Part shown: piece by piece, positions 33,848-51,160 of the stretch | Position numbering within the stretch: position 1 is the first letter of the stretch | How the letters are laid out: each line of letters begins with the position of its first letter | From: Enorma massiliensis phI | GTDB taxonomy: Bacteria; Actinomycetota; Coriobacteriia; Coriobacteriales; Coriobacteriaceae | NCBI RefSeq assembly: GCF_000311845.1 | Contig: NZ_HE978575.1 | Coordinates: 396,446 to 460,445, forward strand | Direction of reading: 5' to 3' | DNA length: 64,000 nucleotides | Translations under genes and position numbers: made by a program | The notes under the pieces: model-generated | The model's input: only the letters and a program-made list of their open reading frames with translations | Told to the model about the DNA's origin: nothing | The model's database searches: none

Positions 33848-35230
33848 CTACCGATACAGCTCCTCCAGCCCGATGAGCGCCGTGCGCTCGTCTGCCTGCG
33901 CCTCAAACCCGGAGCGCGAGAAGAACCCGTACCGGTGGCACGTGAGCCCCGTCCGCTGTACCTGCTCGATCTCATCCTCGATCATCCGTTGTGTGATGGG
34001 TGTCGTGCGGAATTTCGCCTCGTAGAAGGAGTATCCGAGCGGGTCTTTGGTTACAACGTCGAACTCTCCGTTCGTCCTTGTCACCGGATCGTCGTAGGAA
34101 TACGTGCCTATCAGGTCGAAGGGTGGCTCGCTATTACCCATGCGGTTCTGTCGTACGAGGTACTGGCGGCACACCTCCTCGAAGGCGCGGGGGACGAATT
34201 GGGTCTCAAAGTCGTCGTTCACGTAGCGGTCGTAATAGACCTCGGGGTCAAGGACGCTGCGCTGCGACAGATACCTGAAGACGTAGCGGTAGTAGAACTT
34301 GGAGAGCCCGTCGCAGATGACGTACGAGGTACGCTTCTTGTTGTTGGGATCGTTGATGGGTGAGCGCCGTTGGACAAGCTGCATCCCGATCAGCCTGTTG
34401 AGCACGTTGACCAGCGTCGCGCCGCTGGAGACGTGCGACTGGCTCAGGATGTCTCGGTAGCGGGCATGCCCGTCGGCGAGGGCGGAGAAGATCTCGTGGG
34501 CGTTGCCGATTTTCGAAATCTCGGAGAGCAGGTAGGAGGGCACCTCGTCCTCAAGCCGCGCATCCGGCTCGAGAATCAGGTGAATGAGGTTCTCCCGAAC
34601 CGATGCGTTCTTGTCAATGAGGCGGTTGTAGTACGGAATGCCGCCGAACACGCTGAAGAGACGAACCTTATCCTCGCAGGAACGCTCCGGATAGAACTGC
34701 GCAGACTCGTAGTAGTCCATCGGCTGGAGGTTGATCTTGAGGTCGATGCGCCCATAGAGGGGGTTGTCTCGCTCCAGCAGGGACTTCATGACCTCTGCGT
34801 ACGACCCGCAGAGGATAAGCGAGAGGTGCGAGCGGTCGCGATACTCGTCGAGAAGAACCTGGAGGATGCTGTCCATTCCTTTCACGACGTCGCGGAGGTA
34901 GGGATACTCGTCGATGGCGAGCACGATCTTCTCGCCTGTCGCTCGGTCGAAGACAAAGCGCAGGGTGGCCTCGATGTCGGAGAAGGCGAGCGGCGGCATA
35001 TCGAAGGCCTCTGCGATGACCTCGGAGAGGTTTTTCGTGTTGTTCTCGGTGGTGGTCTGGCGGCACTCGTAGTAGATGGTACGTGCGTCGCTTGCCTGCC
35101 GCATGGTGTGGAGGATGAGCTCGCTCTTGCCAACGCGCCGCCTGCCGTAGAGGAGTGCTGCGTTTTGGATGGGGGAGGAAAGCTGGGCCAGGAGCTTTTC
35201 CTGCTCTTTCGTGCGGCCGATGAATGTCAT
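33848..35230 (-). CDS. ATPase with ATPase_2 (AAA) and DUF234-like C-terminus
   Basis: A 460-residue protein of the archaeal-type ATPase_2 group. Walker A is LLYGRRRVGKSELILH, Walker B IVLAIDEYPYL and sensor-1 region LSLILCGSYAEVM. The C-terminal part ends in a nuclease-like fold (GEFDVVTKDPLGYSFYEAKF; D-x-n-E-x-K). The family resembles DUF4143 ATPases in layout; biological role unknown. The ATG at 35230 lies just behind a striking inverted repeat. Confidence 0.85.
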   Translation of the reverse strand: MTFIGRTKEQEKLLAQLSSPIQNAALLYGRRRVGKSELILHTMRQASDARTIYYECRQTTTENNTKNLSEVIAEAFDMPPLAFSDIEATLRFVFDRATGEKIVLAIDEYPYLRDVVKGMDSILQVLLDEYRDRSHLSLILCGSYAEVMKSLLERDNPLYGRIDLKINLQPMDYYESAQFYPERSCEDKVRLFSVFGGIPYYNRLIDKNASVRENLIHLILEPDARLEDEVPSYLLSEISKIGNAHEIFSALADGHARYRDILSQSHVSSGATLVNVLNRLIGMQLVQRRSPINDPNNKKRTSYVICDGLSKFYYRYVFRYLSQRSVLDPEVYYDRYVNDDFETQFVPRAFEEVCRQYLVRQNRMGNSEPPFDLIGTYSYDDPVTRTNGEFDVVTKDPLGYSFYEAKFRTTPITQRMIEDEIEQVQRTGLTCHRYGFFSRSGFEAQADERTALIGLEELYR

Positions 35231-36453: not shown

Positions 36454-36494
36454 AAGATTATTCTAGATAGAATTATTCTGCGGAGAATAATCTT
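36454..36494. terminator. A/T-rich inverted repeat at the end of the HigA-ImmA gene
   Basis: AAGATTATTCT (36454-36464) and AGAATAATCTT (36484-36494) are perfect inverted repeats; a nested ATTATTCT-GCGG-AGAATAAT hairpin lies inside. It spans the stop codon of the minus-strand gene and may end its transcript. Confidence 0.45.
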
Positions 36495-37584
36495 GCTCTT
36501 GGAACGGAATGCGCACGTCGAAGATAAGCTGGTTGCAGTAGCTGCGCTCGAGCATCCGTTTTCGATGCAGCTCCTGCACGACAATACAGGGGACGTCACC
36601 CTTCTGTCGCGCCATCGCTTCGATGTCGTGGGCACGGTTCATGCCCCGATACTCACTTACGCCTCCGCCGAATAGCCAATCACGAGCAAATTGGTCGGCA
36701 GCAACCTCTTCGCTTTTTCGCTTGCTGGATGACTTATTGAATTCGAGCTGCGTTGTGGGGGTTTCATCATTAAGGATGTGGCCGAGCTCATGGAAGAGCG
36801 TCCAGATCACATTGTTGTTTTTCTTGCGGCGACCGGTGAGCTGAATTACGGGCACACCGTTGCGCGTCCAAATGACAATGCCGTAGATGGGGAACTTTTC
36901 GGGCGGCTCGATGAACTGGCATATCACTCCAACGCTATCGAGCAGCTGAATTATGTCGTCGAGCATAGTGTCGTCGGCAGACAGAACACGCTCCTTGAGT
37001 TGAGGGAGGAGCTTCTCCAGCCCGTTCCGATCGAATTTGAGGCAGTGGGCGCGTTTGTATGCGGCAGTGCGCTCCCCGGCTGCGAGCCAGGTCATCATGA
37101 GCGCTTCGTCGTATGTAGCGCTGGACTCGCGGAGCGTCGAAAGCGCTGCGCCGAGCTTAATGGAGCAACCAGCAGAGAAGGATTCAAAGGTGCCGTAGCC
37201 GGTAAAGCTGAGCAGATCCGATAGAACCTGTGTCTTATCCCGCATGGTCGCCGTGGTGGCTCCCAACTTACGCAGGTATGCGCCAAGCTGAGGCGTGACA
37301 ATGCCTTCATGCTGCTTCAGCTGCTGATCGTTTCGCAGGCGAGCACAATCATTCTGATACTGTGCTTCGTAGCGAAGCCATGCGTCACTCGGAATTGAGG
37401 TGACGCGGCCTAGCCTAATTGCGGTATCTGGCGTAATCGGCGCTTTTCCGTTTATGATCTCGTTTACAAGTTTTCTAGACACGTCAAGCCGCTGTGCAAG
37501 TTCTGCCTGGGTGATGCCGTTGCCCTCTTCCTCAATCCATTCCTGGAGGAACTCACCCGGCGCTACGGCATAGTTGGTAGGCAT
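36463..37584 (-). CDS. HigA-type antitoxin fused to an ImmA/IrrE metallopeptidase
   Basis: A 373-residue protein. Residues 1-95 are a HigA-like XRE domain (NGITQAELAQRLDVSRKLVN, IINGKAPITPDTAIRLGRV). Residues ~200-330 are an ImmA/IrrE peptidase with the zinc motif WTLFHELGHILND and a later Glu region (EEVAADQFARDWLF). ImmA proteins cut repressors. It lies downstream of a HigB-like toxin, so the XRE part likely neutralises it while the peptidase may control turnover. This HigA-peptidase fusion is a recognised but less common form. Confidence 0.85.
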   Translation of the reverse strand: MPTNYAVAPGEFLQEWIEEEGNGITQAELAQRLDVSRKLVNEIINGKAPITPDTAIRLGRVTSIPSDAWLRYEAQYQNDCARLRNDQQLKQHEGIVTPQLGAYLRKLGATTATMRDKTQVLSDLLSFTGYGTFESFSAGCSIKLGAALSTLRESSATYDEALMMTWLAAGERTAAYKRAHCLKFDRNGLEKLLPQLKERVLSADDTMLDDIIQLLDSVGVICQFIEPPEKFPIYGIVIWTRNGVPVIQLTGRRKKNNNVIWTLFHELGHILNDETPTTQLEFNKSSSKRKSEEVAADQFARDWLFGGGVSEYRGMNRAHDIEAMARQKGDVPCIVVQELHRKRMLERSYCNQLIFDVRIPFQEQDYSPQNNSI

Positions 37585-39058: not shown

Positions 39059-39651
39059 ATGCCTTGCGAATACCTGCCTCTTGGCTCGCTTGTTGATATA
39101 AAAACTGGCGCACCTATGAGCCGCGCAAAAAAATAGCAGTTGGAGACGACCTAATTGAAACAAGGGTGCTCGTTCCAGCCGCGATGGCAGATTCGCGCAT
39201 CGATGACGCTCAGCTTGTGATCGAGAAGGTTTCGAAGGTCAAAGAGGAGCTTTTTACACGAGAGGGCGACGTAATCATCAAAGCATCTACCCCCTATGAT
39301 TGCGTCTACATCGACAAGGAGCATGAGGGGCTGCTGGTCACCTCATTTGGTCTCATACTTCGGTCGACCTCGGAATCATTAGTTGATATGCGTTACCTTG
39401 CTTTATTTCTCGGACTCGAACAAGCAAACACAGAGCTTCAGAATATGAGTAAAGGCATGACTATCCAGCTTCTAAAGAAAAGGGATATCGGTGACTTAAT
39501 GATCCCTGTTCCTTCGACAGAGGAGCAGGCGCGACTCGGAGCTCTTTCTGAAGGCGTCCAAAGGTACAAAGAACTTTGCCGCGCCATATCCGAAAAGAGC
39601 AACGTGTTACTTCAAAGCGAGTTCGCTCGTATAGTGCAGGCTATTAACTGA
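39059..39651 (+). pseudogene. Half-length hsdS-like specificity gene with an A7 frameshift
   Basis: The ATG at 39059 follows AGAAAGGAG and starts MPCEYLPLGSLVDIKTGAPM, the usual opening of a type I S-subunit target domain. The frame stops at 39134 behind an A7 run (39127-39133). With one more A it continues (RVLVPAAMADSRIDDAQLVI, MTIQLLKKRDIGDLMIPVPS) to the stop at 39649-39651, giving ~197 residues: one target-recognition domain and a helical spacer, i.e. half an HsdS. It may be a phase-variable switch or a sequencing error. Confidence 0.65.
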
Positions 39652-39684: not shown

Positions 39685-41205
39685 ATGATTACCGGAGCAA
39701 CAAAGAGCAAAGTTGATGCCATCTGGCAGAAGATGTGGGAGGGCGGTATCACTAACCCGCTCGATGTAATCACCAATATCACCTATCTAATGTTCATGCG
39801 TCAGCTTGACGAAAAGGAGCTCAAAACGGAGCGCATGGAAGCGATGCTCGGTGAGCCTCTGCCGCACATCTTCCCGGATGAATACGAGAATGATCGAAAG
39901 GAGACCATCGCCGGTAAAGAGATGCGCTGGGGCAGCTTCAAAGACAAGCGTGCCGAAGAGATGTATCGCATCGTTGACCGATTCGCTTTCCCGTTCATTA
40001 AGACCTTGGGTGACGAGTCTGCATATTCCCGTGCAATGGAGAACGCAACCTTTGGGTTCCCCGCAGGCAAACCGTCGCTCTTGGAGAAGGCCGTTACAGG
40101 TGTAGATGAACTGCTCCGCGATTTCGACGAGCATATCGGTGACTTAGGCGACCTTTACGAATACATGCTCTCAAAGCTTTCGACGGCGGGCACCAATGGC
40201 CAGTTCCGCACACCCGCCCACATCCGCGACATGATGGTGAAGTTTGTTGATCCCAAGCCTGGCGAGCTCATTTGCGATCCAGCTTGCGGTACAGCAGGTT
40301 TCCTCATTTCCGCCGCTGAACATATTCGTAGCAACTATGAGAATGAGATGACAACCGCACAGTGGGACGCCTTCACGGGTACGAACGGCGCAAATCCCCA
40401 ATTCAGCGGCTTCGAAATGGATCAGACGATGCTGCGCATTAGCGCTATGAACCTCATGCTCCATGAGGTCGAAGCTCCTGATGTTCGCTACCTTGACAGC
40501 ATTTCGCAAAAGAACGGCATCTCTAACAAGTTCGACGTCATCCTTGCGAATCCTCCGTTTACCGGATCGGTTGATGTTGAAGACATCAATAAGAACCTAC
40601 GTGCCATCGTTGACACCAAGCAAACTGAGTTGTTATTCGTCGCGCTGTTCCTGCGCATGCTCAAAATCGGTGGTCGCTGCGCTTGCATCGTTCCGAATGG
40701 CGTGCTGTTCCGTTCAAACTCCAAGGCATATGGGCAGCTGCGCCGGGAGCTGGTAGACAATCAGAAGCTTGAAGCGATTATCTATATGCCCAGCGGTGTC
40801 TTTAAGCCATACTCGGGCGTAAGCACGGCGATCCTCGTATTCACCAAGACCAATGCCGGTGGCACGGATGATGTCTGGCTTTACAATATGGAAGGCGATG
40901 GCTTCACACTTGATGATAAGCGTGATCCAGACGAGAAGCGTAACGATATTCCGGATATCCTTGAGCGCTGGGTAAAGCTTGATTCCGAGCGCCAGCGCGA
41001 GCGTACGGAGAAGAGCTTCCTCGTTCCGAAACAGGAAATTGTTGATAATGATTACGATTTCAGCTTCAACAAGTACGCAAAGACCGAATATGAGCGCATT
41101 GAGTACCCGCCCACAGAAGAAATTCTGGCCGATCTTGAAGACCTTAATGCCCAGATGGCAGCTGGGCTAGCCGAACTCAAGAAGATGCTGGGCGGTGATC
41201 TCTAA
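39685..41205 (+). CDS. hsdM: Type I restriction-modification methyltransferase subunit (HsdM)
   Basis: A 506-residue N6-adenine methyltransferase subunit. HsdM N-terminal helices (KVDAIWQKMWEGGITNPLDV, YLMFMRQLDEKE), the SAM motif ICDPACGTAGFLISAAEHI (about 198) and the catalytic NPPF (about 287) are all present, with the insertion-free length of the family. With HsdS it methylates the site; with HsdR it cuts unmodified DNA. It overlaps hsdS as TAATG. A stretch of ~33 bases separates it from the half hsdS. Confidence 0.95.
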   Translation: MITGATKSKVDAIWQKMWEGGITNPLDVITNITYLMFMRQLDEKELKTERMEAMLGEPLPHIFPDEYENDRKETIAGKEMRWGSFKDKRAEEMYRIVDRFAFPFIKTLGDESAYSRAMENATFGFPAGKPSLLEKAVTGVDELLRDFDEHIGDLGDLYEYMLSKLSTAGTNGQFRTPAHIRDMMVKFVDPKPGELICDPACGTAGFLISAAEHIRSNYENEMTTAQWDAFTGTNGANPQFSGFEMDQTMLRISAMNLMLHEVEAPDVRYLDSISQKNGISNKFDVILANPPFTGSVDVEDINKNLRAIVDTKQTELLFVALFLRMLKIGGRCACIVPNGVLFRSNSKAYGQLRRELVDNQKLEAIIYMPSGVFKPYSGVSTAILVFTKTNAGGTDDVWLYNMEGDGFTLDDKRDPDEKRNDIPDILERWVKLDSERQRERTEKSFLVPKQEIVDNDYDFSFNKYAKTEYERIEYPPTEEILADLEDLNAQMAAGLAELKKMLGGDL

Positions 41206-42374
41206 TGACGAACAAACCCCCCTTTGCGGGGGAGGGCGCCCGCCGCGTGAGGCTGGGCGAGCTGATTTCCAAGGCGAAAACAGAGCGCTGCGGGGATAGG
41301 TCGTTCCCAGTTCTATCGATGACCATGCACGATGGAATCATTGCGCAATCGGAGCGTTTCAAGAAAGCGATTGCTTCGAAGGACGTTAGCTCATACAAAG
41401 TCGTTTATCCCGGTCAGCTCGTTGTTGGATTTCCAATAGATGAAGGCGTGATTTACGTTCTGGGGTTTGATAAGCCTGGAATTATGAGCCCCGCTTACAA
41501 CGTTTGGGATATTGACGCGAGTATTGTCTTCCCGGGCTATCTTGAGCTTGCGCTGCACGGACCTAGCTGCATGGCGTATTACGCTGACAAGATGAGGGGA
41601 ACCACTGCTCGCCGCCGCACTCTGACGTCAGATAACCTAACTGCAATGAGCATACCGCTTCCAGACTTTAGCCAACAGAAACGCATCGTTGACATCTTCG
41701 GTACCGTCAGGGCACAGATGAATGTATGCCGTCGTCAGTTCTCTCTATTCGATAATCTGGTCAAATCCCGCTTTGTCGAGATGTTCGGGGATCCGACCAA
41801 TGGCGTTGCTTGGCCCTCTAAACGTTTGGATGAAATATGCACGATAGTCACGGGCAATACGCCGCCACGAAAAGACCCTTCTAATTACGGTGACTATATA
41901 GAGTGGTGCAAGACGGATAATATTACCGATGCAAAGTATTTATCTACAGCATCAGAGATGCTTTCCGAGGAAGGTGCGTTAAGAGGACGCGTTGTACCAG
42001 CTGGAAGCATATTGATGGCGTGCATTGCTGGAAGCGTAAAAAGTATAGGGAAAGTCGCCGTTGCTGATCGCAGTGTAGCGTTTAATCAACAAATCAACGC
42101 TCTGATTCCGAGTGAAATGATTGACGTCGAATATTTGCTATGGGCTCTAAGATTGTCAAAAGATTATCTTTGCTCAGGCGTGAACATGCAGCTTAAGGGC
42201 ATACTGAACAAAACATCGCTATCCGCGAAAAGTTTCTGTGTTCCTCCGCTTGCCCTCCAGCAGCAGTTCGCCGCCTTCGCCGCCGAGGTCGACAAATCGC
42301 GGGTTGTAGTGCAGAAGCAAATCGAGAAGCTCCAGGCGCTTTACGACAGTCTTGCGCAAGAGTATTTCGGCTAG
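41205..42374 (+). CDS. hsdS: Type I specificity subunit (HsdS), expressed copy
   Basis: A 389-residue S subunit with two target-recognition domains (about 12-150 and 205-350), each followed by the conserved helical linker (LPDFSQQKRIVDIFGTV and PPLALQQQFAAFAAEVDKSR). The middle block NLVKSRFVEMFGDP is where domains join. It starts one base inside the hsdM stop. Three stretches (41211-41257, 41757-41794, 42274-42302) are repeated in the second copy downstream, so domain exchange is possible. Confidence 0.92.
   Translation: MTNKPPFAGEGARRVRLGELISKAKTERCGDRSFPVLSMTMHDGIIAQSERFKKAIASKDVSSYKVVYPGQLVVGFPIDEGVIYVLGFDKPGIMSPAYNVWDIDASIVFPGYLELALHGPSCMAYYADKMRGTTARRRTLTSDNLTAMSIPLPDFSQQKRIVDIFGTVRAQMNVCRRQFSLFDNLVKSRFVEMFGDPTNGVAWPSKRLDEICTIVTGNTPPRKDPSNYGDYIEWCKTDNITDAKYLSTASEMLSEEGALRGRVVPAGSILMACIAGSVKSIGKVAVADRSVAFNQQINALIPSEMIDVEYLLWALRLSKDYLCSGVNMQLKGILNKTSLSAKSFCVPPLALQQQFAAFAAEVDKSRVVVQKQIEKLQALYDSLAQEYFG
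41211..41257 (+). repeat. hsdS direct repeat 1, copy a (47 bp)
   Basis: Starts AACAAACCCCCCTTTGCGGG and ends GCGTGAGGCTGGG. It codes for the first residues of HsdS, NKPPFAGEGARRVRLG, and is identical to 43525-43571. Confidence 0.9.
41757..41794 (+). repeat. hsdS direct repeat 2, copy a (38 bp)
   Basis: Codes for LVKSRFVEMFGDP in the central linker, identical to 44080-44117. Confidence 0.9.
42274..42302 (+). repeat. hsdS direct repeat 3, copy a (29 bp)
   Basis: Codes for FAAEVDKSR in the C-terminal linker, identical to 44612-44640. Confidence 0.9.
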
Positions 42375-42543
42375 AAGTCTAGCGTGAAGAAGTCGTTTCG
42401 CATTGACGTTGGCTATGGGGAAACGTGCAAACTTACCAGGCACGATTACTGGCGCACCGGTTTGCTGCGCATCCCCCGGATGCCTGATGGGCACATTAGG
42501 CACATTCGCGCTACGCTTGCCTCCCGGATGAATGGAGGCAGGT

Positions 42544-43524
42544 ATGTTGTCAATCAGCGATGCGATTCGTCAGGTCGAACGGATGATGGTGACGACGTTG
42601 GACGGTACGCAGATGCGCCGTCTGCACGATGCGCTCATTGAGTGCTTCATTGAGCAGACCGTCGAGCGTCATAAGCACCTCGGCAACACTGAACTCCTCG
42701 AGGCGTTTCTTGATGCTAAACGCCTCGAGGGTTGTTCTGGTCGTTCTCTTAAGTACTACCGGAGTACGCTTGTGAGGTTTGTGAGCACGCTCAACAGCTC
42801 TCTCATGCTAGCTACAACTGAGCAGATCCGCTCATATCTGGGCGGTTATGGAGAAAAGAGCGGCGCTGGTAACGTGACAATCGACAACGTAAGGCGCATC
42901 ATATCGAGTTTCTTCTCATGGCTTGAAGCGGAGGATTATATCTATAAGAGCCCCGCTCGCCGAATTAAGAAGATTCGAACGGTAAAGACAGTAAAAGAGA
43001 CTTATTCCGATGAAGTAATTGAGCTGATGCGTGATGGCTGCACGACAAAGCGCGACCTCGCAATTGTCGACTTGTTGTCATCAACGGGTATTCGCGTGGG
43101 AGAGCTGGTGAACCTCGACCGTGAGGACATCGACTTCGAGGCAAGAGAGTGCATCGTCTTGGGAAAAGGCGGAAAGGAGCGTCGCGTCTACTTTGATGCT
43201 CGAACGAAGCTTCATTTGGTCGAGTATCTTGCGGAGCGCAACGATGATAATCCGGCCCTGTTCGTCTCGCTCTGCAATCCTAATAGAAGGCTGCAAATTA
43301 GCGGGGTGGAGATACGACTGCGCGAATTGGGGCGGCGCCTGGGCATTTGTCGTGTCCATCCCCATAAGTTTAGAAGGACGCTCGCAACACGCGCTATTGA
43401 CAAAGGAATGCCCATCGAGCAGGTTCAGGTGTTGCTGGGACACCAAAAGATAGATACGACGCTCAGATACGCGATGGTCGATCAGCGTAACGTTCGGATG
43501 TCGCATCGAAGGTACATCGCATAA
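42544..43524 (+). CDS. Tyrosine recombinase between hsdS copies
   Basis: A 326-residue phage-integrase-family recombinase. The N-terminal SAM-like domain spans ~50-150. Catalytic residues are in SSTGIRVGELVNLDRED (Arg), HPHKFRRTLATRAI (His-x-x-Arg), LLGHQKIDTTLRYAMV (His and the nucleophile Tyr). The ATG at 42544 follows AATGGAGGCAGGT. Recombinases of this type sit in type I loci of other bacteria and rearrange hsdS target domains. Here the hsdS copies are in direct, not inverted, orientation, so the likely action is excision or exchange. It is not next to a prophage. Confidence 0.88.
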   Translation: MLSISDAIRQVERMMVTTLDGTQMRRLHDALIECFIEQTVERHKHLGNTELLEAFLDAKRLEGCSGRSLKYYRSTLVRFVSTLNSSLMLATTEQIRSYLGGYGEKSGAGNVTIDNVRRIISSFFSWLEAEDYIYKSPARRIKKIRTVKTVKETYSDEVIELMRDGCTTKRDLAIVDLLSSTGIRVGELVNLDREDIDFEARECIVLGKGGKERRVYFDARTKLHLVEYLAERNDDNPALFVSLCNPNRRLQISGVEIRLRELGRRLGICRVHPHKFRRTLATRAIDKGMPIEQVQVLLGHQKIDTTLRYAMVDQRNVRMSHRRYIA

Positions 43525-43571
43525 AACAAACCCCCCTTTGCGGGGGAGGGCGCCCGCCGCGTGAGGCTGGG
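43525..43571 (+). repeat. hsdS direct repeat 1, copy b
   Basis: Identical to 41211-41257 and placed directly after the recombinase stop (TAA at 43522-43524), in frame with the following S gene but without an ATG. Confidence 0.9.
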
Positions 43572-44727
43572 GGATATTGCGAGTGTGAAAGCCGGTAACG
43601 TTGCGCCGAAGAAGGGTCTGTTTTCCGAGAGGGGGATACCGTTTGTTAGGGCTGGAAGTTTATCCCGGCTGCTCGATGGTGAAAGCCCCAGATCACTTGA
43701 ACGAATTGACAAGATGACCGCGGACAAGCTCGGTATGCAACTGTTTCCAGAGGGGACTATCTTATTCGCAAAAAGCGGCATGTCCTGCATGACGGGTAAT
43801 GTTTATGTCTTAAAAGAGCCTTGTTACGTTGTCTCTCATCTTGCGTGCGTGGCTATAGACAACACGGAGCTTACTCTCTATTTGAAGCACTATTTCAGAT
43901 GGAATAAGCCTAATGCCTTGGTTGAGAACCCATCGTTTCCCTCCATTAGGTTGGGCAAGATAAAAGATATGGAAATAAGACTTCCCGACGCCAGGCAAAT
44001 TGCAAGGTGGGTGTCGACGCTTGAGAGGATTGAGGGGCTGATGGAAACTCACGAACATCAGCTCTCTCTCCTTGACGACCTGGTCAAATCCCGCTTTGTC
44101 GAGATGTTCGGGGATCCTGTTGAGAATCCAATGCGGTTACCGTGTAAAGCGATTGCATCACTCGGTGAACTCAAGAACGGAGTTAATTATCGGAAAGGCG
44201 AGTCTGGCGTTGAGATTAGGTGTCTGGGTGTTTCAGATTTTGGCGCTAAATCGGAGCTAAAAGATGTTACAAATCTGAATTACGTATCGCTCGCTTCTCC
44301 TCCATCTGAGGAAAACCTTCTTAAAGACGGAGACGTCGTTTTTGTTCGCTCAAATGGAAACAAGAAGCTAGTTGGTCGCTGCATGTCGGTATATCCTGGG
44401 AGAAAGGATGTAACCTTTAGCGGTTTCTGCATTCGTCTTCGCATCACGTCCGATCTCGTTCGCATTCCTTATCTGGTTTGGTCGCTCAGGCAGCCATCAA
44501 GCAGAGAAAGGCTTATTGGAAGAGGGGCGAATATCCAAAACCTGAATCAAAGAATTCTTGGTGAAATGCACCTTCCAATTCCTCCCCTCAGTTTGCAAGA
44601 TGCTTTTCTCACCTTCGCCGCCGAGGTCGACAAATCGCGGTTTGTCGTTCAACAACAGGTGGTTAAGTATAATGACGTTATTGCATCCAGTGGAATTGCG
44701 ATTATCGGGCGGAGCGAGCTGGCATGA
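43525..44727 (+). CDS. Second HsdS copy lacking a normal start (silent or weakly expressed cassette)
   Basis: A complete two-domain S subunit body: first target domain (VRLGDIASVKAGNVAPKKG on), linker LLDDLVKSRFVEMFGDP, second target domain, and FAAEVDKSRFVVQQQ. Its frame begins inside repeat 1b straight after the recombinase stop and has no ATG; a GTG at 43561 behind GGGGGAGGG is the only start in reach. It seems a donor of alternative target domains. Its stop overlaps hsdR as ATGA, so hsdR translation may be coupled to it. Confidence 0.8.
   Translation, partial: NKPPFAGEGARRVRLGDIASVKAGNVAPKKGLFSERGIPFVRAGSLSRLLDGESPRSLERIDKMTADKLGMQLFPEGTILFAKSGMSCMTGNVYVLKEPCYVVSHLACVAIDNTELTLYLKHYFRWNKPNALVENPSFPSIRLGKIKDMEIRLPDARQIARWVSTLERIEGLMETHEHQLSLLDDLVKSRFVEMFGDPVENPMRLPCKAIASLGELKNGVNYRKGESGVEIRCLGVSDFGAKSELKDVTNLNYVSLASPPSEENLLKDGDVVFVRSNGNKKLVGRCMSVYPGRKDVTFSGFCIRLRITSDLVRIPYLVWSLRQPSSRERLIGRGANIQNLNQRILGEMHLPIPPLSLQDAFLTFAAEVDKSRFVVQQQVVKYNDVIASSGIAIIGRSELA
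44080..44117 (+). repeat. hsdS direct repeat 2, copy b
   Basis: Identical to 41757-41794, at the linker between the two target domains of the second S gene. Confidence 0.9.
44612..44640 (+). repeat. hsdS direct repeat 3, copy b
   Basis: Identical to 42274-42302, in the C-terminal linker. Confidence 0.9.
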
Positions 44728-47700
44728 ACTTCGATTTTCTCAAACGAGAAGATGGCTACTATAGCCTCTTTGCGGATGCTTGCATTGAAGCGGAGAAGGT
44801 TTTCTCTACGTCGCCCGCCATGTGTGCTGTCGGCTGTCGCAAAGCGCTTGAGCTCGCGGTTAAGTGGGTCTATGCAATTGATACAGACATTAGCATGCCC
44901 TACCGCGACAATTTGTCATCTTTGCTCCACGAACGGTCGTTCATGGACGCTGTTGATGAGCGCGTATGGCGGAAGCTTCTTGGGATAAACAAGCTTGGCA
45001 ATCTTGCGGTACACACCGAGCGTGTCGTTACACCCGCGGACGCGATTTTGGTACTGCGCAGCCTTTTCGAGTTCGTTGACTGGATCGACTATTGCTACGG
45101 CCCAGATTATTCTGTACGAACATTTGATGAGAAAAAGATTCCAAAGAAAGGAATCCAACTCACAGCAGCTCAAATTAAGGTCGTTAAGGATCGCGAGTCA
45201 CTTCTCAATGAAAAGGACGAGGAGATTAAGCGGCTCGAGGCTGAGCTGAAGAAGCTGAGCGCTCAGGCGGCTCAAATCAAAGAAGAGGATAGGCCGAAGC
45301 GCGATTTCAACCCAGAAGACATCTCCGAATTTGAGACGCGCAAGCACTATATCGACTGGGATCTTGCGCTCGCTGGCTGGAAACTCGACGAGACCGTTCT
45401 TCAAGAGCGAGAAGTTCACGGCATGCCGGTTGAACCGGGTTACAACACGGGTGTGGGCTACGTTGACTATCTTCTTATGGGTAAAGACGGGCGTCCGCTC
45501 GCCATTGTCGAGGCGAAGCGCACCTCTTATTCTGAACAAAAGGGTCTCAAGCAGGCGCGGCTTTACGCAGGTTGCCTTGAGAGGGAGTTTGGCTATAAGC
45601 CGCCTATATTCCTCACGAATGGATTCGCTACACTGTTTGTCGATGACGAAAACGGTGCTCCACGTCCGGTAAGCGGATTCTTCTCGCAAGATGATCTGCA
45701 GAAGCTTTTTAACCGTAGGGCGGCTACGGTAAAGCCTACGACCCTGACAGTAAATGAAGCGATAGCTGGCGGCGGAAAGCGCTATTACCAGATTGAGGCT
45801 ATCCAACGCGTATGTGCTAACATCGAAGAGGGGCATCGCAAGAGCTTGCTGGTTATGGCTACGGGAACCGGCAAGACTCGTGTTTCGGCCGCCCTGGTTG
45901 ACGTGCTCATGCGTTCAGGGCATGTTAAGAACGTCCTCTTCTTAGCGGATCGCGTGGCGCTTGTCAGGCAAGCAAAGCACGCTTACCAAGATTATCTGCC
46001 CAATGAGTCTCTGTGCAATCTCTGCTCAAATAAGGATGAGCGCAATGCTCGCATCGTTTTCTCCACGTATCCGACCATCATGAATGCAATTGATGGGGAG
46101 CGAAATGAAGACGGCGACCGTATGTTTACGCCAGCGCATTTCGACCTCATTATTGTTGACGAGGCGCATCGCTCTATCTTCAAGAAATATCGGGCGATTT
46201 TCGAATTCTTCGACTCTCTTGTCGTTGGACTCACGGCAACACCTGCCAACGAGGTTGATCGAAATACGTACGACTTCTTTGATGTTGAGCGTGGCGTGCC
46301 GACCTATGTTTACGAATACAAAACAGCAACGGAAGTCGATCATGTCCTTGTTCCGTATTACGGCATAGAAACTCATACGAGCTTTATCGACGAAGGTATT
46401 ACCTACGACGAGCTATCTCCTGAGGAGCAAGAGCGGATTGAGGAAGATTTCGAAGATACCGGCCAAGAGGTTCCTGACAAAATCGAGAGCACAGACCTTA
46501 ATAGATGGGTGTTTAACGAAGAAACGGTCGACAATGTTCTAGTCACGCTCATGGAGAAGGGCATCCATGTCCAGGGCGGTCAGGAGTTGGGCAAGTCGGT
46601 AGTCTTTGCCCAAAACCAAAAGCACGCGCGCTATATTGTCGAGCGTTTCGGTAAGCTTTACCCGGGACTTCCGGGAGACTACATTCAGGCTGTTGTTCAT
46701 TCTGACGACTATGCGCATACCATTATTGAAGATTTTGAGCTGAAGGTTCGGCCGGTTATCGCCGTGTCGGTTGACATGATGGACACAGGCATTGATGTGC
46801 CCGAAATCGTAAATCTCGTATTCTTCAAAAAGGTTCGCTCCAAGATTAAATTCTGGCAGATGATTGGTCGCGGAACCCGTTTATGCGAGGGGCTGAACGT
46901 TACTGACCCGTTGGATGGCACCCACGAGGACAAGGAGCGCTTCTTCATTTTCGATTGGTGCCGCAATTTCGAGTTCTTCCGTGAAAACCCGCACGTTGTT
47001 GAAGGGAAGTTAACCGTTTCCGTTGCTGAGCAGGTTTTTTGCAGGCAGGCAGAGCTCGCTATGCTTCTGCAAAACAGCGCTTTTACGGCCGATGACTATC
47101 AGGCATGGAGAAAAGAGCTCGTCGAAACTATGCACGGCCAGGTAATCGCTTTGAATGACGAGCTCTTCACCGTTCGTAAACATCGCCGAGAGGTGGAGAA
47201 ATACCGCCGTATCGAATCCTTTACGCTGCTTTCTGACGTTTCGTTTGCCGAGCTTAAGAATCCGATTTCGATGCTTGTTGTCAATGATGAGGCGGACTTT
47301 TCTGCGTTGCGCTTTGATAACGTCATGTATGGTTACATGATTGCGACCTGCAAAGCCCAAAATACAGATTCGTATAAGAAAAAGATTGTGAGTATGGCAA
47401 GGCTGTTGCAGTCGTTGTCGACCGTTCCCCAGATCAACGAGCAAATGCCCCTGATTAGGCAAATCGCAGAAGGGGACATGCTGGATGGGGCTACCCTGCT
47501 GCTTCTTGAAGATATTCGCAGGCGACTTCGCTCGCTTATTCAGTTTATTATCACTGGGCCGCAACGACGGGATGTTATCACCCACCTGGATGACCCGATC
47601 ACGGAAATGACCTATGGAGTGTCCGCAGATATTGGTGAAAACTTCGAGAACTATAGGCTTAAGGTCGAGCGCTATCTTAGGGATTATTCTAATAACGTGG

Positions 47701-48107
47701 TTATTCACAAGTTGCGGACCAATAAGCCGATGACTGAATATGAATTTAGCCAACTCGAGCGTATCTTTACTCACGAACTTGGCAATGCGGAAGATTACGC
47801 AAAAGCATATCAAGATACTCCGTTTGGCCTTTTAGTTCGTCGGGTAGTTCATCTCGACCGGGACGCGGCGATGGAGGCCTTTGCCGATTTTCTTAGCGAT
47901 CAGAGCCTCAATGAACAGCAGATCTCGTTTATTAAACGCGTAATAGATTATGTGGTTGAGAACGGATATATGGAGCCTGCGGCACTTAATCATCCACCGT
48001 TCGATCGCCCGAAATCTTTCATGCAGATGTTTAATACTCAACAGCAGATGAACTTGGTGACTGTAATCAAGTCAATTAAAGAGAATGCCGTTTCGCCCGC
48101 TGCATAA
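44724..48107 (+). CDS. hsdR: Type I restriction endonuclease subunit (HsdR)
   Basis: A 1127-residue translocating nuclease. Residues ~1-110 are a DUF4145 domain (AVGCRKALELAVKWVYAIDT), then a coiled coil (about 150-190), the nuclease with VGYVDYLLMGKDGRPLAIVE and EAKRTS (PD-ExK), Walker A VMATGTGKTRVSAA (about 379), DEAH-type VDEAHRSIFKKY (about 480), motif III GLTATPAN and motif VI FWQMIGRGTRLC, and an HsdR C-terminal helical domain. It pairs with HsdM/HsdS to cut unmodified DNA far from the site. GGCGGAG precedes the ATG. The sequence is intact. Confidence 0.95.
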   Translation: MNFDFLKREDGYYSLFADACIEAEKVFSTSPAMCAVGCRKALELAVKWVYAIDTDISMPYRDNLSSLLHERSFMDAVDERVWRKLLGINKLGNLAVHTERVVTPADAILVLRSLFEFVDWIDYCYGPDYSVRTFDEKKIPKKGIQLTAAQIKVVKDRESLLNEKDEEIKRLEAELKKLSAQAAQIKEEDRPKRDFNPEDISEFETRKHYIDWDLALAGWKLDETVLQEREVHGMPVEPGYNTGVGYVDYLLMGKDGRPLAIVEAKRTSYSEQKGLKQARLYAGCLEREFGYKPPIFLTNGFATLFVDDENGAPRPVSGFFSQDDLQKLFNRRAATVKPTTLTVNEAIAGGGKRYYQIEAIQRVCANIEEGHRKSLLVMATGTGKTRVSAALVDVLMRSGHVKNVLFLADRVALVRQAKHAYQDYLPNESLCNLCSNKDERNARIVFSTYPTIMNAIDGERNEDGDRMFTPAHFDLIIVDEAHRSIFKKYRAIFEFFDSLVVGLTATPANEVDRNTYDFFDVERGVPTYVYEYKTATEVDHVLVPYYGIETHTSFIDEGITYDELSPEEQERIEEDFEDTGQEVPDKIESTDLNRWVFNEETVDNVLVTLMEKGIHVQGGQELGKSVVFAQNQKHARYIVERFGKLYPGLPGDYIQAVVHSDDYAHTIIEDFELKVRPVIAVSVDMMDTGIDVPEIVNLVFFKKVRSKIKFWQMIGRGTRLCEGLNVTDPLDGTHEDKERFFIFDWCRNFEFFRENPHVVEGKLTVSVAEQVFCRQAELAMLLQNSAFTADDYQAWRKELVETMHGQVIALNDELFTVRKHRREVEKYRRIESFTLLSDVSFAELKNPISMLVVNDEADFSALRFDNVMYGYMIATCKAQNTDSYKKKIVSMARLLQSLSTVPQINEQMPLIRQIAEGDMLDGATLLLLEDIRRRLRSLIQFIITGPQRRDVITHLDDPITEMTYGVSADIGENFENYRLKVERYLRDYSNNVVIHKLRTNKPMTEYEFSQLERIFTHELGNAEDYAKAYQDTPFGLLVRRVVHLDRDAAMEAFADFLSDQSLNEQQISFIKRVIDYVVENGYMEPAALNHPPFDRPKSFMQMFNTQQQMNLVTVIKSIKENAVSPAA

Positions 48108-48130: not shown

Positions 48131-49057
48131 ATGCCAATTCCAACTCAGACCGAGATGTTTCTCGTGGTCTTGGAGCTCATGAAAGACGGCAAAGAGCGCA
48201 AGCGCATCGGCATCATTAACGACGCCTGCGATATGCTCGGTCTCTCGGATCGAGAGCAGGCACTAGTTACCTCAAGCGGTGTCCCGGTTTATCGCAGCCG
48301 TGTTAGCTGGTCGGTCTCTTATCTCGCGCGTGCGGGCATGCTTTTCAAAGTGACACATGGCGTATACAGGATTAGCGATTACGGAAATGCTGCTGTTGAG
48401 AAATACGACAACGCGCAGCTGCTTTCCGATGAAATCAACAAGGCTATTGCAGAAAAGAATCCTTGGAAGTCGAAGAAAAAGGGTGATGCCAAGCAAAAGG
48501 GGGATAAGGATCCGTTGGATGAAGGGGTTCTTCCTGATTCCATCAACGAGACGTCTCCGCAGGAGCAAATCGACGCTGCTTTCGCACAGTTGAAAACTGA
48601 CCTGCAGGACTCGTTGCTTTCCTCGATTATGGATAAAGACCCGGGCTTCTTCGAGAAGCTTGTCGTGGATCTTCTGGTGAAGATGGGTTACGGGCAGGGC
48701 GAGCAGACGCGTATCAGCAATGATGGCGGTATCGACGGTATGATTGCAACGGATGCTCTGGGCTTTGACCCAATCTATGTCCAGGCCAAGCGCTATTCGG
48801 CTGAAAAGCACGTTGGGCGCCCCGAACTTCAAGGTTTTGCAGGCGCGCTTGGGAGCATCTCGCGCGGCGTGTTCATCACCACATCAAGCTTTGCGCAGAG
48901 CGCGATTGATTGGGCGCGGCATTACCCTCATGCAACGCTCGTGCTTATCGACGGCAAACGCCTTACCGAGCTGATGATTCAGTACGATCTTGGCGTTTCG
49001 ACTGAAAAGGTATACCGCATCAAGCGAATTGATGGCGACTACTTCGGAGAAGAGTAG
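48131..49057 (+). CDS. mrr: Mrr-type restriction endonuclease (type IV)
   Basis: A 308-residue protein. An N-terminal winged-helix Mrr_N domain (YRSRVSWSVSYLARAGMLFK, HGVYRISDYG) leads to a charged linker (about 105-145) and the Mrr_cat nuclease (FFEKLVVDLLVKMGYGQGEQ, SNDGGIDGMI, VQAKRYSAEKHVG: D-x-QAK). Mrr enzymes cut methylated DNA. It follows hsdR by 23 bases, so it is part of the operon; it must tolerate the modification made by HsdM. Confidence 0.9.
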   Translation: MPIPTQTEMFLVVLELMKDGKERKRIGIINDACDMLGLSDREQALVTSSGVPVYRSRVSWSVSYLARAGMLFKVTHGVYRISDYGNAAVEKYDNAQLLSDEINKAIAEKNPWKSKKKGDAKQKGDKDPLDEGVLPDSINETSPQEQIDAAFAQLKTDLQDSLLSSIMDKDPGFFEKLVVDLLVKMGYGQGEQTRISNDGGIDGMIATDALGFDPIYVQAKRYSAEKHVGRPELQGFAGALGSISRGVFITTSSFAQSAIDWARHYPHATLVLIDGKRLTELMIQYDLGVSTEKVYRIKRIDGDYFGEE

Positions 49058-49180: not shown

Positions 49181-51067
49181 TCAGGACGGATCCCGATCCC
49201 GATCTAGCGGGTCAGTGTTGTTGTGACTACGTGGCAGCGGCAATTCAACGTCCTCCAATATGCTTGCAATGAGCCCTTCGAGAGATTGCTTTGTTTTAAG
49301 TATTTCTATTTGATATGTATTGCGAATCAAATCTGAGCCCGCATGGATTAACGGATTATCTCGGCGAAGCCTTTCGGCGGCATGTATAATCTGTTCAGAT
49401 TTCGGTATCTCACAATATAGCTTAGCTAACTCTTTTTCACTATATAAGAAGCCCCTCTGCTTCTTTTTCAGTATTTTGCGTTTGAAGAGAGTCGAGAATC
49501 TATCGAAATAGGCTCGATAGTACGATATTTGTTCAAAAAAGTTTTGCGTTCTTCCATGGAACAGCTGGTTGACGAATTGGATTTTGCTCCGATCATCATC
49601 GGCGATAACGAATAGTATTTTCGATTCAACTTCTGTAATCGGGTCGCGGATGAATTGGTCGTTAATACAATATTTATCGATAAAGATGGACAGTCCGAGT
49701 TCTGACTTGCGCAGCAGCGACAGAAGGTCACGGTGATGCATTCCTCTGTTGATGAGATAGTTTAGCGCGATGAGCGTGTCGATACTGGACCAAGTCCCAT
49801 CTCTATAGGACAGGAAAAGCGTATTCAACAAACGTTTGATTAGATAATCATCATGAGTATCAAGAATGCACTTAACAAGTTCGTTTGTTCCATAAGTCAG
49901 AATGACCTTGCCGCTCAATAGAGCTTTTTTGATTGAGTTCTTGACGCTTAGGCAACTTAAATTGGCATTGCTATAAATAACGCTCCGGAAAGCAGTCATT
50001 GAATCTATATGCCTATCTTTTTGAGAAAATGTCAACTCGACAGCTGCTTTGAAGTCTTGCTGGCAATAATTCCTTTCGAATGACATGCGAGCAATCTCTT
50101 CAAACAATTGAGATATGCGACCTGGGGGGTCTTCAATTACTTCCCCCGTGTAATGACCTGAGAAATCAACGCATGATTCTGTTGCTTCGGCTAATGAGAG
50201 CTCACTTGTTTGGCCGAATTCTACCTTGTTCAGATTTAGAGCAAGTCCGTTTTTCCTCAAGATATCTGCGTATTTATTGAGAATCAGTTCCTTTATTTTG
50301 AATGGGGATGATTCGTTCGACACGTTGATAAATATGAACATGTCATCCACATAGCGAATCATTTTGAATGACTCGGCACCGCAATTGCTATCAATGCAGC
50401 GGAAAAGCTCCGCATCGATGTCGGAAAGATATACCTTGGTAGCCAGGAAGCTCAGCGTCGGATGGTTTTGAATGGTTGGAAACTTACCCGCTCCGCAATA
50501 GAGCAGTAGCGCGCGAAGGAAAAGGCAGTCGGTAGCTGAGAAATTCTTATCGGAGTAACTTTGCATCTTTGACATGAGCTTGTCGACATTAATTGAGTTG
50601 TAGAAATTGGAGAGGTCTGTTTTGAGGTAGTAGGAGTACTGGCTTTTTGCAATCCGTTTCTGGTCACAATACCGTCGATAGCTATCCTTATACTGCGCGC
50701 AGTTGTTTGCTAGATCGCCGGCGTATTCACATATCATGTCTTCGCGCGGGTCAGCGAAACATCTCTGGTACTCAATCCCAAAAGCAACAAGGTATAAAAA
50801 CATAATTGGAGAAATGAGTGTTGAATCGCGAAATGACGCGCCTTGCTTCTGAATGAAACCACTAGTTACATAATTCATCGAAGTACAAGCAATGAAGGCA
50901 CCGTCTTTAATGTAAGCCGAGAAAAAGTTCTCCGAAGATAGAAGTTGCCAATCAAAAGTGTTGAGAACTGAGAATGGATACCATTGTAGATAGCACCTCA
51001 AGCGACGTTTCTGGTCCTTCATGGTTTTGCATGCTGCTTTCCAAGAGCTGTACGAGGGGTGCATCAT
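49181..51067 (-). CDS. AbiA-like abortive infection reverse transcriptase with HEPN domain
   Basis: A 628-residue protein from the ATG at 51067 (an open frame extends to 51160). The reverse transcriptase-like palm has YYLKTDLSNFYNSINVDKLM (motif A) and MIRYVDDMFIFINV (motif C, YVDD). The C-terminal helices hold a HEPN-type RRDNPLIHAG (R-x5-H). RT plus C-terminal HEPN and this length are the layout of lactococcal AbiA. Such polymerases make untemplated, protein-linked DNA and stop phage growth. It is A/T-richer than its neighbours. No strong ribosome site supports the start. Confidence 0.8.
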   Translation of the reverse strand: MMHPSYSSWKAACKTMKDQKRRLRCYLQWYPFSVLNTFDWQLLSSENFFSAYIKDGAFIACTSMNYVTSGFIQKQGASFRDSTLISPIMFLYLVAFGIEYQRCFADPREDMICEYAGDLANNCAQYKDSYRRYCDQKRIAKSQYSYYLKTDLSNFYNSINVDKLMSKMQSYSDKNFSATDCLFLRALLLYCGAGKFPTIQNHPTLSFLATKVYLSDIDAELFRCIDSNCGAESFKMIRYVDDMFIFINVSNESSPFKIKELILNKYADILRKNGLALNLNKVEFGQTSELSLAEATESCVDFSGHYTGEVIEDPPGRISQLFEEIARMSFERNYCQQDFKAAVELTFSQKDRHIDSMTAFRSVIYSNANLSCLSVKNSIKKALLSGKVILTYGTNELVKCILDTHDDYLIKRLLNTLFLSYRDGTWSSIDTLIALNYLINRGMHHRDLLSLLRKSELGLSIFIDKYCINDQFIRDPITEVESKILFVIADDDRSKIQFVNQLFHGRTQNFFEQISYYRAYFDRFSTLFKRKILKKKQRGFLYSEKELAKLYCEIPKSEQIIHAAERLRRDNPLIHAGSDLIRNTYQIEILKTKQSLEGLIASILEDVELPLPRSHNNTDPLDRDRDPS

Positions 51068-51160
51068 CAGCAAGCCAATCTTTACTGATATCAGTCGTGA
51101 AGTAGCTTGGATATGCGAGCGGTATCGACATGCAAATCCGCGCTGCGGCAATCGTAGCAT

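Follow-up and report, generated by a model that had tools for sequence, protein, structure and literature searches.

In the pneumococcal tvr (SpnIV) locus, hsdS genes are shuffled by excision and reintegration at direct repeats with the recombinase TvrR, and the excised circles have been detected by PCR (Kwun et al. 2018, PMC6265443). The direct repeats of tvr lie at the midpoint and the tail of hsdS and have a common core, and only the upstream hsdS is active (PMC6265443). In the SsuCC20p locus of S. suis, the hsdS allele is locked once the recombinase has been deleted (PMC10790761). A survey of duplicated hsdS genes in REBASE sought inverted repeats and leaves direct repeats unmentioned in its text, so that hsdS loci with direct repeats would be missed by it (PMC7394358). 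A preliminary description of the locus studied here had set its direct repeats against known type I shufflons, which it took to work by inversion; as tvr works by circles formed at direct repeats (PMC6265443), this contrast falls.

The locus lies in a 64,000-nt stretch, called the window below, of the genome of the gut bacterium Enorma massiliensis phI. We propose, with a probability of about 0.8, that it is a type I restriction-modification shufflon which acts by excision and reintegration.

Layout of the operon and its neighbourhood

The window contains one type I restriction-modification operon on the plus strand, in the order hsdM–hsdS1–tyrosine recombinase–start-less hsdS2–hsdR. The DNA methyltransferase subunit gene hsdM (39685–41205; PF02384/PF12161, PADLOC MTase_I) is followed by the first specificity subunit gene, hsdS1 (41205–42374; PF01420, PADLOC Specificity_I), the ATG of which overlaps the hsdM stop codon (TAATG). 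hsdS1 encodes the target-recognition domains (TRDs) A1 and B1, carries the canonical C-terminus (...IEKLQALYDSLAQEYFG) and is presumed to be the expressed copy. The restriction subunit gene hsdR (44724–48107; PF04851, PF08463, PADLOC REase_I) ends the operon, and the adjoining genes for HsdM, HsdS and HsdR place it, by their predicted products, among the type I systems.

The recombinase gene (42532–43524, XerA-like) is intact and gave matches to PF00589 (8.7e-32) and NF040815, both above cut-offs. The catalytic R, K, HxxR, H and Y could be read in its translation (TGIRVGEL, GKGGKERR, HPHKFRRT, LLGHQK and TLRYA) within a phage integrase catalytic domain, so that the product is predicted to be an Xer-like tyrosine recombinase. 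An alternative ATG at 42544 has a better Shine-Dalgarno spacing. The sole content between hsdS1 and the recombinase gene is a leader of about 157 bp (feature 42375–42543, fold z = -2.96), with a predicted hairpin (GCTTGCCTCC/GGAGGCAGG) over the recombinase Shine-Dalgarno sequence. A leader hairpin was also predicted in a closely related locus, L033, with one G-C pair changed to G-U, and this structure may keep recombinase expression low.

The second specificity gene, hsdS2 (43525–44727; PF01420; TRDs A2 and B2), opens on the codon right after the recombinase stop (TAA AAC AAA CCC ...), directly at the first repeat, in frame and with no ATG. The preliminary description had recognised this start-less beginning and had missed two further features of the gene, a non-canonical C-terminus that runs into the hsdR start and a GTG at 43561 that is a possible weak start.

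Downstream of the operon lie an Mrr-type type IV enzyme (48131–49057) and, on the minus strand, an abortive-infection reverse transcriptase of the AbiA/DRT class, 659 aa long (49181–51160; PADLOC AbiA, E 8.7e-178), and together these and the operon form a defence island. Two further minus-strand genes, at 36463–37584 and 33848–35230, match the PD-Lambda-2_B (weakly) and PDC-S27 defence candidate models. Upstream of hsdM there is a half-size hsdS-like ORF on the plus strand (39166–39651), with a weak MAD5 match, which contains none of the site cores of this locus. Similar half-S ORFs stand ahead of hsdM in L033, L133 and L137 and are annotated upstream in Ligilactobacillus plasmids (L183–L186).

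Three direct repeats with a common core

The two hsdS genes share exact direct repeats of 47 bp (41211/43525), 38 bp (41757/44080) and 29 bp (42274/44612) on either side of the recombinase gene, which lengthen to 50 nt (98%), 60 nt (88%) and 40 nt (93%) when mismatches are allowed. They lie in frame at the N-terminus, the middle and the tail of hsdS1 and hsdS2 alike. All are direct, and no inverted match of at least 15 bp was found between the two hsdS sides of the locus. The preliminary description was correct on the lengths, the placement and the direct orientation of the exact repeats.

Inside each of the three repeats there is a 14-bp, partly palindromic core, CAAA-N6-TTTG, the 6-nt centre of which is the same in hsdS1 and hsdS2 but differs by position: CCCCCC at site 1, TCCCGC at site 2 and TCGCGG at site 3. 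All copies were read on the plus strand. The upstream site 1 core (CAAA-CCCCCC-TTTG, 41213–41226) lies in the 47-bp repeat (41211–41257), which runs from the third codon of hsdS1; the upstream site 2 core (CAAA-TCCCGC-TTTG, 41762–41775) lies in the 38-bp repeat (41757–41794), where KSRF is encoded in the central linker; and the upstream site 3 core (CAAA-TCGCGG-GTTG, 42293–42306), at DKSRV in the tail linker, belongs to the 29-bp repeat (42274–42302) and has one arm mismatch (GTTG). The downstream copies are at 43527–43540 (site 1, just past the recombinase stop), 44085–44098 (site 2) and 44631–44644 (site 3, CAAA-TCGCGG-TTTG).

The core arms are unusual at the codon level, because in the other ORFs of the window Lys is encoded as AAA in 34.5% of cases and Phe as TTT in 27%, while AAA is present in six of the six core copies and TTT in five. 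The pattern of the mid and tail cores had four matches in the whole 2.28 Mb genome, all of them in this locus and on one strand, and its reversed control had no match in the genome. In both copies of the site 1 repeat (41216–41237 and 43530–43551) the minus strand also gave a terminator-like hairpin; the promoter and terminator scan as a whole was at chance level.

Core centres are matched within loci

Within 11 coriobacterial loci, that of the window included, all 33 of 33 position pairs share the 6-nt centre between the hsdS copies, under a selection that favoured matched pairs, most of which were found also when that preference was removed. These loci have seven distinct centres at the N-terminal site, four at the mid site and six at the tail (for example CCCCCG / TCCCGG / CTGCGA in L138 and CCCGCG / TCGCAG / TTGGAA in L037). 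Where the second hsdS copy is inverted (L134, L139 and L142), the centres are reverse-complemented in L134 and L139, and in L142 at the mid site. At the mid site of 47 loci, the centre was shared in 49 of 63 within-locus pairs, compared to 8.8% between loci, and a permutation test of the same pairs gave a mean of 6.1 and a maximum of 16. Constant arms, with centres that are identical in the two partner sites, are what a tyrosine recombinase would need.

The tail core differs between its two copies in the window locus and in L136, L137 and L044, with GTTG as the right arm upstream and TTTG downstream. Because the right half of the tail core thus seems to stay with the fixed tail, exchange probably falls within the 6-nt centre.

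Relatives of the recombinase

When public genomes were scanned with the recombinase, 80 loci were obtained, which nearly all have hsdS genes alongside, and in many of them a core or core-like site lies no more than a few bases past the recombinase stop. Direct matches of at least 15 bp between the hsdS sequence flanking the recombinase were present in 68 of 81 loci and inverted ones in 17 of 81. AAA-N6-TTT occurred in 73 of 134 direct repeats of at least 18 bp, and in 5% of random segments. In a tree of 90 recombinases, drawn from Actinomycetota, Bacillota, Bacteroidota, Fibrobacterota, Spirochaetota, Synergistota and Deferribacterota, the layout was direct at 65 loci and included an inverted copy at 18, and it switched between these states about six times. 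This ratio, which also counts against the idea that such systems only invert, is valid for this recombinase family only, because the loci were sampled by similarity to the recombinase of the window. The latter groups with those of L033 and L136 (support 100), and the loci of both have the same layout as that of the window.

We consider it somewhat better than an even chance that, across many phyla of gut anaerobes, recombinase-linked variation of hsdS more commonly takes the form of direct-repeat cut-and-paste, in which the 6-nt centre is an address that restricts each piece to its own position, and that this form has been overlooked because the published survey sought inverted repeats (PMC7394358).

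The preliminary description had suggested looking for strains that have one hybrid hsdS and lack the recombinase, but the closest relatives gave none: among the ten most similar hsdM loci (at least 67%, that of the window included) from 151 genomes of the order, nine keep the recombinase, and the tenth is on a contig that ends early.

Other arrangements were seen in the family. In L135, L137, L138, L056, L044 and L045 hsdR follows the first hsdS and precedes the recombinase, and therefore the predicted circle would carry hsdR too; in L037 the recombinase and a spare hsdS are ahead of hsdM. L108 (Clostridium luticellarii) has a 577-bp stretch identical in both hsdS genes, from 4512 onward and from 26 bases past the recombinase stop, which may reflect recent copying of one target domain or an effect of assembly. 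A family recombinase (49% identical) is also encoded on the archaeal plasmid Methanosphaera pNP174 (L187, L188); this plasmid was deposited twice with the arrangement unchanged between the records, and no hsdS is annotated beside its recombinase. No terminal repeat or other mark of a circle was seen in four contigs (5.2–24 kb) that are recorded as 'Bacteriophage sp.' and encode a family recombinase, and the IMG/VR loci were mostly ends of larger contigs.

Movement of domains between loci

One and the same recombinase of the family (57% identical to that of the window) is encoded on four Lactococcus plasmids, whose flanks are near-identical but whose half-hsdS sequences stand in at least three arrangements. 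Between two of these plasmids, pJM2A (L179) and pJM1A (L181), the crossover is confined to a 15-bp interval matching the core TAAATCATCATTTA: in offset coordinates, same-orientation identity stops at 579 and inverted identity starts at 565, with the core at 565–578. This 14-bp Lactococcus core is identical to the inverted repeat of SsuCC20p of S. suis.

In Veillonella, the silent downstream slot of VA142 (L070) corresponds to the expressed slot of VA137 (L073), with 99.2% identity over 505 bp, and the homology of the shared module breaks off at the cores of the mid and tail sites. Similarly, the expressed slot of a Rubneribacter locus (L037, after hsdM) matches the silent slot of a Gordonibacter locus (L038, after the recombinase) at 99.4% over 514 bp, and this first-domain module runs from the site 1 core to the mid site. 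Both translocations span related species, so that horizontal transfer with ordinary homologous recombination could also have produced them.

Proposed mechanism of excision and reintegration

In the mechanism that we propose, the recombinase encoded between the hsdS copies would recombine direct sites with CAAA-N6-TTTG cores. Excision at any like pair would release a circle of about 2.3 kb with the recombinase gene and two TRDs; in silico, the circles were 2314 bp (site 1), 2323 bp (site 2) and 2338 bp (site 3), each with the recombinase, and the hsdS left behind was in frame at 402, 399 and 394 aa respectively, with a non-canonical tail. The in-frame fusion at any pair and the recombinase-bearing circle had been foreseen in the preliminary description and were reproduced here, although as a mechanism that account was incomplete, since excision alone loses the recombinase and gives an hsdS with a non-canonical tail.

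Reinsertion of the circle at the same site would restore the original locus, and at another site it would exchange either the first or the second domains, or the two together. In silico, reinsertion at a different site gave A2B1, A1B2 and A2B2, with the canonical tail, the recombinase and an unchanged length, so that excision with reintegration yielded four in-frame hsdS of 389–397 aa, all with the canonical tail. Reintegration at a different site would thus make the locus a reversible four-state switch, which goes beyond the excision first described. The hsdS next to hsdM could hold any of the four domain pairs while the recombinase is kept, each pair presumably reading a different DNA motif, and the start-less hsdS2 would be mainly a store of domains.

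The segment from site 3 through the C-terminal tail and the recombinase to site 1 would move as a single unit, and therefore an integrated locus would always give the expressed hsdS its proper tail; loss of the circle would leave an hsdS with the wrong tail. As the three 6-nt centres differ, recombination would be expected only between like positions, by which the frame and the order of domains would be kept.

What the analysis shows directly is the anatomy of the locus, the core sites, their matched centres, the in-frame products obtained in silico and the translocation of modules between related genomes with edges at cores. We infer the action of the recombinase on the sites in the window, the formation of the circle, the rates and the silence of hsdS2 in this organism.

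Alternative explanations

A frozen tandem duplication of hsdS, with sites that were once active in a locus that no longer switches in this organism, is very unlikely. It would fit the single state seen in the assembly, the degenerate arm of one site 3 copy and the lack of a toxin–antitoxin pair or other partner gene, but the recombinase is intact, the 47-bp repeat is exact, the four TRDs are all different, all frames are open and the same layout is shared by L033 and L136.

In another explanation, the two hsdS copies exchange sequence by RecA-dependent homologous recombination or gene conversion, with the recombinase as a bystander or remnant. The repeats, at 29–47 bp, and the position of the mid and tail repeats within conserved coding sequence are compatible with this, and the repeats of about 70 bp in tvr show some recombinase-independent excision by a further pathway, seen in the absence of recA too (PMC6265443). 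Against it, loci that have little else identical share a short core in which the arms are fixed and the centres are matched by position, the Lactococcus plasmid crossovers map to a 15-bp interval, the recombinase is intact and in many of the 80 loci adjoins a site, and switching in S. suis needs the recombinase (PMC10790761). We judge this explanation very unlikely.

Also very unlikely are two independent expressed specificity subunits that give one restriction-modification system two fixed targets, since, although the downstream hsdS of SsuCC20p is transcribed and methylates (PMC10790761) and the GTG at 43561 could start hsdS2, this gene has no ATG and a non-canonical tail, only the upstream hsdS is active in tvr 2+2 loci (PMC6265443), and the matched centres and module translocation would be left unexplained. 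Under excision and reintegration hsdS2 need not be silent, because the downstream hsdS is active in SsuCC20p; in the window it is probably silent or weakly expressed.

Comparison with known systems

In H. pylori, target domains are reported to change position within hsdS, as they would here, but the movement is inside one gene and was seen between strains (PMC3077401). In the SpnIII/ivr (cod) system of S. pneumoniae, hsdS genes exchange sequence at a short repeat with the help of a recombinase, on which the exchange depends; the system differs in acting by inversion at inverted repeats of 15, 85 and about 300 bp, of which the 15-bp repeat alone needs the recombinase (PMC4948785). SsuCC20p of S. 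suis is similar in its related layout, the AAA-N6-TTT form of its core, the 14-bp length of that core and a recombinase related to that of the window, as judged from the presence of its 14-bp repeat on the Lactococcus plasmids. It differs in that its repeats are inverted and all have one centre, its domains invert or switch place, and its downstream hsdS is active (PMC10790761). The inverted repeats between hsdS copies that characterise inverting shufflons (SpnIII, SsuCC20p) are absent from the window locus at lengths of 15 bp or more.

The 2+2 form of tvr has the same order, hsdM–hsdS–tyrosine recombinase–second hsdS–hsdR, with all repeats direct. As in tvr, the window locus has direct repeats of one orientation in both hsdS genes with the recombinase between them, and its repeat types share a short common core (CAAA-N6-TTTG in all three), the tvr core being compared by description only. 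The window locus would work like tvr but is not filed as a tvr locus. tvr has a phd-doc pair (tvrAT) beside the recombinase and a terminator-like attenuator, whereas the window locus has no toxin–antitoxin pair and only the leader with its predicted ribosome-binding-site hairpin. tvr also has two repeat types and none at the 5' end, so that its first domain next to hsdM is immobile, whereas the third, N-terminal site of the window locus (47 bp, 41211/43525) would allow each of the four domains to move and deprives the second copy of a start codon.

These data suggest that many gut anaerobes use recombinase-driven excision and reintegration, as characterised in pneumococcus, to change the targets of restriction and methylation. 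They also propose a testable recombination site for this family of enzymes, with conserved arms and a centre that is variable but matched within each locus, and with the site so defined genomes and long reads can be screened directly for such switches. The window locus differs from tvr in its third, N-terminal site, its start-less cassettes and its lack of a toxin–antitoxin pair.
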